This document shows positions 20,036 to 26,100 of a DNA stretch of 64,000 bases, one piece after another. The notes under the pieces are model-generated. The model was not told where the DNA came from. It made no database searches and saw only the letters and a program-made list of their open reading frames with translations. The DNA comes from Patiria pectinifera. Its lineage: Eukaryota > Echinodermata > Asteroidea > Valvatida > Asterinidae. Where the stretch lies: NCBI GenBank assembly GCA_029964075.1, contig CM057136.1:10230001-10294000 (forward strand), read 5' to 3'. Within the stretch, counting starts at the first letter, position 1. Each line of letters starts with the position of its first letter. Both the position numbers and the translations under genes were made by a program.

Positions 20036-20155
20036 TTATGTGAAGGTGAGCCCGGCGTCGTGATAAGTCTGGAAGATCTTCTCGATCGAGTTGAGGTAGG
20101 CAGCCGTGCGTAGATCCAAGCCCAAGTTGTACTTCATAGCCGTGCGCATGATTTG
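20036..20155 (-). CDS. GLUD1: GLUD1 alternative C-terminal exon C (distal, canonical)
   Basis: A strong pyrimidine tract and CCCAG acceptor, then 39 codons starting [20 protein letters not shown] and ending HDAGLTFT, then TAA. This is the version closest to human GLUD1 (ending NEAGVTFT), so it is probably the ancestral last exon. A candidate AATAAA lies about 320 bases downstream. Confidence 0.94.
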
Positions 20156-23100
20156 CTGGGAGAGGGCAGAGAGTGATCGAGGGAAGAAAGTTATCACGGT
20201 AATCAAAAGCGCCCTCTACTGTTCTCACACAGCAAGGCAATACTTTACCCAGACACAGCCATCAACACATACAAATGCAGAAATTGTTGTGCATTTTTTT
20301 TTTGGTATTTCCAATTGTTTTTTGGCGGTCTATTAACCCTCCTAGTCTTCTGCGCTTCAAAATCCTAGTTTTACAAAACCACTTTTGCCCACAGAGTTAG
20401 CATCCACACTTCACAGATTCCTTTGAGGTAATCTTCTGTGGAGTATGGATAACACTTCAAATCCCTGCACAATTCTTTTGCGTGGTTAAGCTCAGGGCAA
20501 GCAGGCAGATTCGGTCACGCTTCGCTGCTCTCCACAGTGCTGGATTTGTTTGTCATGCAGTGACTCTGTTTGTCCACACAGTTAACTTTAACACTCATAT
20601 CCCTTCACCCGAAACTGACCTGCAGGGTTTTAAAGGGTTATTTCGCTCCGAAATATGGACTTCCCACTAGGAGGGTTAAAAAGATATCAAACCAACGTTT
20701 CAGACACGAAGATGGAGTAAGTTAAGAACGAAAAAGGAAGAGTTTTAGACATGGACGTGTAGGCCTTGAAGGCATTGTGAGATAATGTAAAGAGCGTGAT
20801 TTTTAGGGGTGGGGGAGTTTGGGGGTGTTGTCGTTTAGGCGAAAGCGAGACCCGCCTTGCCAATGGTGTTGTAGATTTTCTCCAGCGAGTTGACGTAGGC
20901 CGCCGTGCGGAGGTCCAGCCCCAGATTGTACTTCATGCCAATCCTCATCAGTTGCTGATGGGAAACACAAAAGAATTTAAGACGCTGGATTTTTATCTGA
21001 ATTCCCAAATTATGGGTAAGTTGACAGTCTGGAGTCTGGAGTACTCCCGCCCCCCCCCCCCACCCGTCCCTTTAGTTTCAACCCATTCATGAAGCAAGCA
21101 ATGACATGACATGCAGGTGCCGTGCATGGTTTGAGATTGCTTGAGTATGATATCAAGTATTGCAGCCCTAAAGTATTTGTGACATGTTTGATGTGTTTGA
21201 CATATTTGACGTGTTTAACATGTTTGACGTGTTTGACATGTTTGACATATTTGACGTGTTCGACGTGTTTATAGTTGACGTGTTTGACATGTTTGATGTG
21301 TTTGACATATTTGACATGTTTAACATGTTCGACGTGTTTATGGTTGATGTGTTTGACATGTTTGATATGGTTGACGTGTTTGATATGGTTGACATGTTAA
21401 GAAGCGCGGGGAAGACATTGCAATGTGCATGGAAGGTTTGAGATTGCTTGGTGATGCGTTTTCAAACATTGCAATTCTGTGCAAGCAGTGTTGTGTATAA
21501 TAAAGGCAATGGCAAACTAGGGCCAATTTCACTGGGAGCCGGAACTGTGAAGTTCATGATGAATTTTCGACTAGCGTCCAAGAAGTGCTCTCATGGGGCT
21601 CATTTGAACAGGCCAAAGACTGCACTCAATAGTTCAGGCATGACCCCGATAAACACATGTACAAAATGGCAAACCCATGAAGTTGTAACCGCCAATGTTT
21701 ATTCAACTTGGCAGGGAAAGTGTGTTCAGGATTACAACACGTATTGCAGCAGACCAGTGGCATGACATTGAAAGCTTTCTTCAAATGAGGAAGGAAAAGC
21801 GGCTGAAAAAAAATAAATAAAATCAACTCTGGGTGAAGAGAGATGCATTCCAGTGAAGGCAGCAGGCTTATGGGGATAGGAAAAAGGGAGAAGTTGGAAG
21901 AAAAAGTGTCTGAAACGCTGATTGATACACTAAAAATTTGGCATCTGATTTAAATATGGCTGCGCGATTACAGTTCTACAATTATCTTTAAAAGAATGAA
22001 ACAAGGATGAAAAAAAAAATGACATGAGCAGGGTTTGAACCTGTGACCTCCCGAACACCGTAACAGTGCTCTACCAACTGAGCTATCCAGTCCCACACGT
22101 AGGCAGCCTTTCTCTTGTCAGTTTCTTTGTTCATGGGGTACAAGTCAAAACATAGAATCACTCAACAACAGAGTTTTATTTCACACAGGCTTGGTAGTGT
22201 TCCCAGCATACCGGGGGGACAAACTATTTAGACTGCAACACAATTAAATACCTGCAATGAAAACAGTGGGTAACAAAAAAAAATGGATTTGCAAAAGCCA
22301 AAGCAATGATAAAACAACATGCTATGAGCCACATGTATGCATACACATCAGCCATCACACTGCCAAAAAAAAGAGACACCTGCAATAAAAAGTGCATGGA
22401 AACAAAAATGTCCAATATGTCAAGCATGTCCAATATGTCAAAAATATCCAAAACATGTCAAAAAGGTCAATTATGTCCATAATGATAAATATGTCCAAAA
22501 TGTCCCAAATTGAATGTCTAAAATGTCAGAAATGTAAAAAATTATAAATACGTCCTAAATGTCCAAAATTAAATGTCCCAAATGTCAAAAAGTCCAGCCA
22601 AAAATGTCCAATATGTCAAAAATGTTAAATGTCTAAACTTTTAAGTCCAAAATTTAATGTCCAAAATGTCCAATGTATGTCCATCATGTCAATATGTCAT
22701 AAACTTAAACAATGTCCAGAATGTCAAATATGTCCAAACTGTCGAAAAATTTCCAAAATGTTAATAACATTTTGATTTGCTGTTCTTGTTTTGTATTAGA
22801 TTATCAATCAAAACTGCCATGTTGCGGGCCCAAGTCTGCAATGTTGAGGGAATATACCTTGGAAAACATGGGGAAATTGAAAAAAAACACAGGAAAAATT
22901 GTGAGACTAGTAAACCAGAAGTATGCAAAATCATGCTACAGTGCACAACGACATGTACATGTAGCATGCTGCTAGTACAAAGACGCATGCGCCACACTTC
23001 AAACAGACACTGTTGCACACTGCTTGCTGCACATACCACCACCAACACCGCTTGCGTGAGAAGGGGCGAGGATATTACGCACAGAAACTAGTGCTACCAG

Positions 23101-26100
23101 AAAAAGACGATAAAATACTCATACAAAAAAGTTTTACTCATACTGGAAAATTGTTGGCTTGTCTTTCAAAATGGTTTCTCACGAAATTTTGAATTCCCTC
23201 AGAAATGTTTCACAACCTACAAGTAGTTCCATGTGAATTTGGTTGCTACTCTCGTTTCTTCCATGATTTTTTATGAAAAAATTCTCTCCACTATGTTAAA
23301 ACTTCTCCACGATCAACCATGGAAAGTTTTCAGAATTCTCTAGACTTTTCCGTGATAGAAATTCCCTAATTCTGCAGGACTTTTCATCGTCTCACGGAAC
23401 AAAATTCAAACTGCTAGACTTTTTCAGGTGGTCCTTCATGGAAATGGGCTAAGAATTTTCCGTGATGAAATAGACTTCTCCCAACTCCCCAAGACTTTTC
23501 CTCGAAAAAAATTATGGAAATTCAAAAAATTTAGTAAGGATTTGTCAAGGATGAATTTCAAAAATGCCAAAGCATGTCCATAGAAAATTTTATGTCTTGC
23601 CTAGACCCTTCCCACACCAAATATGAGATTTCTTTAAATACAAATTTGCATTTCCAATAATGAAACCTTGATTAATTGAATAAATTTTGACATGTTTGAA
23701 GGCTTAAAAAACATTTCTATTAAAATGAGTAAATCTCCAAATTCTTTTATGTGTAACAACCAAAACCAAACAAAGCATCTTGTACAAGTATCAGAAAAAA
23801 ATCGCACCGTTTTTCTTTTTTTACACTTTTCAAAAGGTTTTCATGACAGAATCAAACAAAGCATTTTGTTCAAGTTTCAGATTGGATAAAATCCAAGCAA
23901 CTACATTTTCCTTGATGTAACCCCTCAAAAAAACCAAAAACACCAAACATCAGTAGTCTACCAGAGTAGAGCTTGAATAAAACTTTTTTCTGAGCAACAC
24001 GAAAGAGAAATTACTGTATTACTATCTTCGTGTGGTAGAATCCTCCATTTTGTGGGCGGAGTTTTGGTTAAAATGTAAGGCCCGCATTGAAATACGTATA
24101 ATAGACCTTGGTGATGGCTGATGCGTAGGCGGCGGTTCGGATGTCCAAACGCAAATTGTGCCGCATGGCAACTCGCATGATTTGCTACGAAACAAACAAA
24201 AACGGTAGGTGGGGTGAAAATAATTACCCAATGATTTGCATTGGATGTGCCAAAGCAGTTGACCTATCGCCGTTTGGGAAGTTAGCCACGCCCCTTAAAC
24301 AACCCTATGGAGTTTTTGTACACTAACTTTTGCTTGTCTCACATTTTGCACATTCTGCGTCCATTTGTATACCATGTAATTGGACAACAAGCTGCGTTGA
24401 CGCGATTCTAACACGATTCTACCGCGATAGGTCAATTGATTTTCCAACACAGGAATTACCGTGATTTTTTACTTTTGAAATTCTCACTACATGATTGGGA
24501 ACTCCCACGATTAAACAGTGACCAATGATGGATGACCTACTCATGAATATGCAATGGTATAAATATTCAAAGAAAGCAATGCATTATACATGAGTGGATG
24601 AGTTCGAAAGGGAGACTGTTCCCATGTTGAAAAAGTGATCAGTGATTGGTGACTAGCTCATGAATATGCAATGTACATTCAAAGAAGGCGATGCATTATT
24701 CATGAGTGGATTGACTTTCGAGGGAGAGTGCTTTCATGCAGAGCAAAAAGCAATATTTAACTATTAACATTTAACTATTTTTTGTGTCTGCATTGTCCAA
24801 CCAAATTAGGCACTCTAGGTGGGCTTCAACAAAGGAGATTTTTTGGGGGGGATGGAAAGGGGTGCCACTCTATAAAAGAAACAGTGAAAAGACAGCAGAG
24901 CATCCCGGAAAGGACACTAACATAAAAGGGGTGCCACTCCTCAAAAGAAATTGGACACTCTCATGAACAAAAATAGCACCACTCACATCAAGAATTTTTT
25001 TTGGGGGGGGGGGGGGGGGAAATCCTTCCCCAACAGATACAATTTGAAAAGAAGAAGGGGGCCAATCTTAAAAAGCATCCGGGCAGTTGGGGGGAGTCCA
25101 GGAAACCGTTTCTAAATACAGATGACATGAGGAAGGGGTACCACTCTAAGAAAACAAGTGGGACGAAAATTAGAAAACCAATGATTGAGTATCAGCTTTA
25201 TCTTGCAACCTACCCTTGCGGACCGTTCCATGGTGTAGGCCAGGCCGCTGTGCACGATGTCCTTTTCGCTGGCACCAGAGATGCGGTCTGTGAATTTCTC
25301 AGAGGGCACGATGGGGATGCGGCCGCCGTGCTTGCCGAATTTCCTCTCCAGACTCTCCTGTACACTCTCTGCGATGAAACAAGAAAACGAGTGCGAGTGC
25401 ACAATAAGCTCTGGCCGTCTTGCACGAAAGTCTTGCATGAAATCTATCAAAATGATCCCTGCCAGAGCTTAAAAATGGGACACCCAAAAATGTGACCCCC
25501 AAAAATGCAACGCGGATGGCACATATGGAACACCATACTTTAGATTTATACCTAAATTTATAGCGAGTTGTGAAACACACCACATGACTATAACATTACT
25601 GCACATTTTTGCCTCCTTTTACAATCTTTTCACAAACATATTTCCGAATTGTTACAAACATTTTTTTTTAACTATTTAATTTATTAAATAAAAATTTGGT
25701 AGTTATATTTTTATGGGAACCTTGGAGGGCTTATTTTAGTCAATTTTGCAAAACTTAAAAACCCAATCAATCAATCAATCAATCAATAGAAGATTGATGG
25801 GACCACTTTGTCAATCTGTCAATCTGTCAAATGTGGGACCACTTTTGGGGTAGAATAGGAAATGTCAAGACTAGGAGGAAACAAGTGCGAGTGCACTCAC
25901 TCACATAGTAAAATAAACAAGCATTGTGCATCGATTGAAACAAAGCCTGTCTTCCGAAAACTTTCGGCAAGAGTGTAGTTACTTGACCACGGCATGGCAT
26001 TTGGTCCATTTTTGGTCAAACATTTTGGGTCAATTTTTGGGAATAGACAGACAGATCGACTGACTGACCGACCAACCGATCGACCACCAAGTGACTTGTA

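Follow-up and report, generated by a model that had tools for sequence, protein, structure and literature searches.

Can one glutamate dehydrogenase (GDH) gene of a starfish give rise to several enzymes with different C-termini? The question is raised by a stretch of 64,000 nucleotides of Patiria pectinifera (GCA_029964075.1, contig CM057136.1, positions 10,230,001 to 10,294,000 of the forward strand), hereafter the window. Its minus strand carries a GLUD-type GDH gene in which nine constant coding exons (31943 to 25214) are followed by three separate last exons, termed A, B and C (Table 1). An initial annotation had placed these exons, each intact and with its own acceptor and stop codon, after the junction that follows the residues MERSAR at 25214, and every one of its coordinates proved exact. 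We think it likely, from the gene structure, that as many as three enzymes come from the one starfish GLUD gene detected, with the ninth exon (e9) joined to one of the three tandem last exons. The intact and phase-matched exons, and the mark of long-term purifying selection that they bear, are visible in the DNA itself.

Structure of the gene and of its last exons

At its 3′ end e9 reads TCC GCA AGG followed by GTAGGT, and the donor after 25214 is therefore in phase 0. Each of the three last exons is directly preceded by a pyrimidine-rich AG acceptor, begins with the codon CAA in the shared phase and ends with TAA. When the constant part is spliced in silico to A, B or C, the product continues in frame from MERSAR to one terminal stop. 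A and B have kept frame, stop, phase and acceptor; there are no internal insertions or deletions, and A is shorter by its last residue only. Exon A lies 1.0 kb from e9, B another 3.1 kb further and C a further 0.7 kb. At 0.49-0.55, the G+C content of the last exons is comparable to that of the constant exons (0.40-0.64) and exceeds that of the surrounding introns (0.37-0.44). Taken alone, none of the three exon peptides matched a Pfam family at E values up to 1, and a BLAST search of exon A against phage records gave no match.

The identity of the gene is clear from its homology. The model of isoform C, whose first residue contains a placeholder base, aligns without gaps to human GDH1 and is identical to it in 388 of 496 aligned residues; a working copy of the human sequence served as query and reference. 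The C-terminal 132 residues match human GDH1 structures at E 1.4e-73. Within the modelled part, which begins after the targeting peptide and the first exon, homology spans both the antenna and the C-terminal region, as expected of animal GLUD-type enzymes. A search upstream of the first constant exon (e1) found no convincing candidate for the first coding exon or exons and the targeting peptide, which may lie further upstream or inside a gap of N.

Divergence and selection

The peptides of A, B and C share 20 (A-B), 24 (A-C) and 27 (B-C) of 38 residues, and the exons differ at 45, 43 and 33 of 114 nucleotides, respectively. Second codon positions have changed least (7, 7 and 5 differences) and third positions most (20, 23 and 17). 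B and C had been described in the initial annotation as agreeing at most residues yet differing synonymously, and this is borne out: 12 of the 25 degenerate codons that specify an identical residue in both are different. By the Nei-Gojobori method (NG86), the B-C pair has a nonsynonymous divergence (dN) of 0.231 and a synonymous divergence (dS) of 1.188, and dS for A-B and A-C is saturated beyond computation. The copies resemble one another at E 1e-11 to 1e-15, and chance open reading frames are rejected on these values.

Similarity between the copies is confined almost entirely to the exons. With the trivial overlap of the compared stretches set aside, the significant local alignments span the exons and reach no more than 17 nt beyond them on the upstream side and 34 nt on the downstream side. 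In global alignments compared with shuffled sequences, the 150-nt flanks reach z scores of 0.2-2.0 upstream and 1.2-2.8 downstream, against 9.8-15.3 for the exons. A recent duplication is rejected, since synonymous sites are near saturation and flank similarity is gone or almost gone.

In neutral simulations that placed all change on one copy (20,000 runs for each of six directions), identity as high as that observed had a probability of 0.0004 from A to B and 0.0007 from B to A, and it was reached in 0 of 20,000 runs in each of the other four directions. A codon model for the three sequences, in which one branch may be neutral and the others constrained, rejects neutrality of all branches (likelihood-ratio statistic 57.7), of the A branch (8.48, p = 0.0036) and of the B branch (7.99, p = 0.0047); its root is poorly placed, its branch times are not ages, and its power is low because it rests on 38 codons and saturated times. 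Where A departs from C, its replacements are more conservative than neutrality would predict (P = 0.0025). At some positions where C differs from the human GDH1 reference, the human residue is found in another copy (Ala489 and Val493 in A, Val487 in B), which fits old copies. Because the flanks are nearly dissimilar, synonymous sites are near or at saturation, the peptides are still alike and neutral evolution of A and B is rejected, the three exons look like old copies maintained by purifying selection on the protein. The initial annotation had likewise argued for long-term selection, and against both recent duplication and plain decay.

Several observations count against the reading of A, B and C as three alternative last exons in use. 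The polypyrimidine content of the three acceptors is good, yet other AGs equal or exceed it: among 226 AGs of the region, 19 are at least at the level of A and B and 10 at least at that of C, the sites themselves counted. Neither AATAAA nor ATTAAA is present within 1.4 kb past A or between B and C, where only weaker variant hexamers occur. Some flank similarity is left downstream of B and C (z 2.8). In the codon model, C alone can be made neutral and the fit is no worse (p = 0.64, from 38 codons with times at saturation), and the replacements in B are conservative only weakly and not significantly (P = 0.08). Moreover, when a C-like exon was allowed to evolve neutrally in simulation to 0.15-0.2 substitutions per site, 54-60% of the products were free of stop codons and 65-92% kept at least 24 of 38 residues. 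A short and recent neutral spell is thus possible for an exon copy.

It could accordingly be supposed that C is the sole working last exon, and that the alternative exons A and B, though old, fell out of use recently and have not yet been broken. Only C comes close to the canonical sequence, and an AATAAA follows its stop at 317 and again at 487 nt; no such signal is found near A or B, and A is also the most diverged copy. The selection tests give an average for the entire history of the copies and are blind to a recent loss, and more than half of the simulated neutral exons keep an open frame. This has to be set against the preservation of frame, stop, phase and acceptor in both A and B, with no loss other than the last residue of A, and against the rejection of an entirely neutral branch for each of them. 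We consider a recent loss of A and B unlikely, though it deserves to be kept in mind.

3′ ends and exon choice

Under the preferred reading, e9 would be spliced to A, B or C, each serving as an alternative last exon. Judging from the positions of consensus signals, A could be an alternative last exon in the strict sense and probably uses a distal poly(A) site of its own, which would require a 3′ untranslated region (UTR) of 1.4-1.9 kb. Because no AATAAA or ATTAAA separates B from C, these two may be alternative acceptors in front of a shared 3′ end. A B transcript that ends at the poly(A) site of C would have exon C inside its 3′ UTR, which would be about 1.1 kb long, and the B mRNA may therefore carry C as untranslated sequence. 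A switch of the last exon by tissue, stage or feeding would be a guess.

The long intron between A and B contains two low-complexity arrays of complementary sense (21180-21398 and 22403-22761), TGACATGTT-like and AAAATGTCC-like. Judged by the ten pairings at the head of the list, they could pair over 39-60 nt at 71-82%. There are 52 inverted-repeat pairs in the region, and the longest among the 25 listed joins these two arrays. As an idea only, pairing of the arrays would loop out both AATAAA signals that follow A.

The same intron contains a tRNA-like element (22020-22092, minus strand) that scores 35.2 bits in Rfam (gathering threshold 29). ARAGORN finds no tRNA in it, and its fold is no better than those of shuffled sequences; perhaps it is a tRNA-derived repeat.

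The long transcripts suggest another possibility, namely that A and B are used mainly for control at the RNA level, through long 3′ UTRs or unstable tails, and that the protein variants are of little consequence. The UTR lengths given above for A and B, and the inclusion of exon C in that of B, are as this would have it. However, purifying selection has acted on the amino acid sequence while synonymous sites and flanks drifted, and we find a role mainly in RNA control improbable.

Copy number

When the window was searched by tblastn with the human GDH1 query, the last exon was matched significantly three times and each other part once. The whole-assembly searches covered 613,548,705 bases in 1020 contigs, with only the best candidates scored. 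For the C-terminus query, all three scored candidates were matches and all of them lie inside the window. For a 139-residue query from the catalytic core, two of three scored candidates were matches, and both are exons of the window gene. Among the best candidates scored, no second GLUD was detected in the assembly, where one would be expected to appear. Since the C-terminus is matched three times and the core and all other parts once, the duplication appears to concern the last exon alone, in a gene that seems to be single-copy.

These counts also bear on the idea that each of A, B and C terminates a GLUD gene copy of its own in a tandem series, with the other exons of the additional copies missing through loss or misassembly. 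Genes are often duplicated in tandem, but around the three last exons no other GLUD exon gave a significant match, nor was any matched twice in the window, and the assembly has one catalytic core; separate gene copies are mostly refuted and seem very improbable to us. An assembly artefact or uncollapsed haplotypes can hardly be credited, for although the window has gaps (1000 N), the N stretches lie outside the three-exon region, and the copies, all on one contig, differ at 33-45 of 114 bases, far above the allelic level, in mostly unrelated flanks.

Potential function of the exchanged segment

Alignment of the isoform models to GDH structures places the exchanged exon at human mature residues 467-505, that is, the loop with Asp480, the last (C-terminal) helix and the tail. 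The initial annotation had expected isoforms differing only in the C-terminal helix, which is too narrow: the exchange starts at 467, before the Asp480 loop, and includes the leucine-binding tail. Its view of intact, long-selected alternative last exons is well supported, the splicing of all three and their mutually exclusive use being a supposition, and the functional meaning is extended from a helix variant to a predicted swap of the leucine site.

In the constant exons, the equivalents of the leucine-site partners Arg151 and Asp185, of the ADP-site residues Asp123, Arg463 and His89, and of His454, which we take to be a GTP-site residue, are all conserved. The published structures provide some clues regarding the exchanged part. 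When ADP is bound, two residues bond Arg76 (PMC12072557, excerpt), namely Asp533 from the loop that follows the pivot helix and Thr536 from the last helix (480 and 483 in mature numbering). The structure of bovine GDH with ADP and leucine, as described in an excerpt of PMC9570180, has two subunits that hold leucine through Arg207 and Asp241; a third subunit contributes its C-terminal Thr559, Val558 and Phe560 move, and Tyr553 touches leucine. In the same account, Lys548 orients Asp179 of the ADP site. Subtraction of 56 converts these bovine positions to mature numbering (Arg207 to 151, Asp241 to 185, Thr559 to 503, Val558 to 502, Phe560 to 504, Tyr553 to 497, Lys548 to 492 and Asp179 to 123).

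The equivalents of Asp480, Thr483 and Lys492 are retained in all three last exons. At positions 497, 502, 503 and 504, bovine and human GDH have Y, V, T and F; C and A have Y, L, T and F, and B has I, L, A and F. Relative to C and human, B thus carries Tyr497Ile and Thr503Ala. Exon A keeps Tyr497 and Thr503 and differs in Tyr475His, Gly478Arg, Glu491Thr and the lack of residue 505. By its sequence, B is without the hydroxyl that binds the leucine amine and without the tyrosine that faces the leucine side chain, if the bovine roles apply. Because both replacements remove side chains that contact leucine in bovine GDH, we predict little or no activation of the B isoform by leucine. The C isoform is predicted to be the canonical, leucine-activated enzyme. 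The A isoform is predicted to be shifted in ADP- or conformation-linked control, via its altered loop and helix.

Two considerations speak for caution with regard to B. In GDH of T. thermophilus, Thr503 is replaced and leucine is still bound via a main-chain carbonyl (PMC9570180, excerpt), therefore Thr503Ala need not abolish leucine binding. Furthermore, the comparison at Thr503 and Tyr497 rests on the bovine and human enzymes and may not reflect invertebrate GDHs in general.

Since GDH is a hexamer in which three subunits together form the leucine site, hexamers of mixed composition could respond in a graded fashion. It is conceivable, although we hold this quite tentatively, that exon choice swaps the leucine tail, such that C and A subunits sense leucine and B subunits do not, and that mixed hexamers tune the burning of amino acids, for example between feeding and fasting. 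GDH stands at a branch point of amino acid breakdown and the tricarboxylic acid cycle. If the reading is true, this core metabolic enzyme would contain an amino acid sensor controlled by splicing. The isoforms would then be matched natural chimeras, identical outside residues 467-505, with which the role of the C-terminal helix and tail in control by leucine and ADP could be tested. In that case, metabolic studies could also be misled by a single annotated isoform of starfish GDH, or by transcript counts from exon coverage, since exon C may be present in the 3′ UTR of B transcripts.

Other features of the window and the genome

Table 1. Exons of the GLUD gene and candidate poly(A) signals in the window
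Feature	Position	Strand	Remark
Constant exon e1	31828..31943	-	begins inside the split codon before PNFF...
Constant exon e2	31006..31147	-	carries the His89 equivalent
Constant exon e3	30329..30529	-	carries the Asp123 and Arg151 equivalents
Constant exon e4	29701..29975	-	carries the Asp185 equivalent
Constant exon e5	29399..29536	-	
Constant exon e6	28553..28690	-	end shifted by one base; frame and GT kept
Constant exon e7	27377..27457	-	
Constant exon e8	26334..26457	-	
Constant exon e9	25214..25368	-	MERSAR end with phase-0 donor; carries the His454 and Arg463 equivalents
Alternative last exon A	24184-24068	-	38 codons and TAA
ATTAAA after A	22658		1.4 kb past A
AATAAA, candidate poly(A) signal for A	22175..22180	-	about 1.9 kb past the A stop, then GT-rich; consensus match
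Second AATAAA after A	starts 21703	-	consensus match
Alternative last exon B	20954-20835	-	39 codons and TAA
Alternative last exon C, canonical	20155-20036	-	39 codons and TAA
AATAAA, candidate poly(A) signal for C, perhaps B	19714..19719	-	317 nt past the C stop; consensus match
Second AATAAA after C	starts 19549	-	487 nt past the C stop; consensus match

Apart from the GLUD gene, the window contains a tandem array at approximately 71-16000 in which a 3.3 kb unit (3296-3312 from start to start) is repeated about five times. In a gapless comparison, most 300-nt blocks of the copies are 97-100% identical and some only 66-87%. On the plus strand, a 310-codon open frame (45577-46509) has an N-terminal SAM domain (Pfam SAM_1, E 2.6e-12) followed by apparent hydrophobic segments, and an array of about 760 bp (51125-51898) is made of the 10-bp unit CCTCACAAGT (66% matches) and is open in two frames.

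Elsewhere in the genome, an asterotocin-like peptide, CLVQDCPEGGKR, follows a signal-like leader on contig C5 from 11243132 and contains CLVQDCPEG and then GKR. A neurophysin exon lies about 9.8 kb downstream on the matching strand, and we infer that both belong to one gene. C5 also has a second, weaker neurophysin match (E 2.7e-5). CLVQDCPEG-NH2 is the asterotocin of Asterias rubens, CLVSDCPEG occurs in a brittle star, and the peptides of a sea urchin and a sea cucumber are different (PMC7181382, excerpt). The peptide of this genome therefore indicates a starfish as the most likely source. A COI fragment used as query against the assembly gave one match, at E 0.21, and nothing of use.

Comparison with known systems

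To our knowledge, no alternative C-terminus has been described for GLUD1 or for Drosophila Gdh and Bb8, the latter of which is a separate gene. Tandem alternative terminal exons are of a known kind; a GDH example was not found described. None appears in the titles and beginnings of abstracts of the open-licence PubMed Central literature on GDH isoforms and on starfish or echinoderm GDH, and public starfish gene annotations may already list such isoforms.

Vertebrate GLUD1 and GLUD2 (bovine and human structures 8AR7, 6G2U and 1NQT) are the same enzyme as that of the window, with the checked allosteric-site residues of the constant exons conserved. Several forms of GDH in one animal are also found in Drosophila, where Bb8 is named as a testicular GDH besides Gdh, and apes have diversified GDH via a second gene, GDH2 (PMC12072557, excerpt). 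The window, in contrast, has one gene with three last exons.

Of two further Drosophila genes, pip encodes a sulfotransferase and PGRP-LC an immune receptor. Both likewise have tandem homologous 3′ terminal units, which are there mutually exclusive, and in PGRP-LC the choice is made by competing RNA structures (PMC9013439, excerpt). Unlike these, the starfish gene encodes a core enzyme of the mitochondrion and would vary its allosteric tail; it is known here from its exons, and exclusivity is only supposed. A closer functional parallel may be OGDH, in which the mutually exclusive exons 4a and 4b alter the calcium sensitivity of a mitochondrial dehydrogenase complex (PMC7969005, excerpt), such that exon choice retunes the response to a regulator. 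In OGDH the exons are internal and the regulator is calcium, whereas in the starfish GLUD gene they are the last exons and the regulator is, by prediction, leucine.

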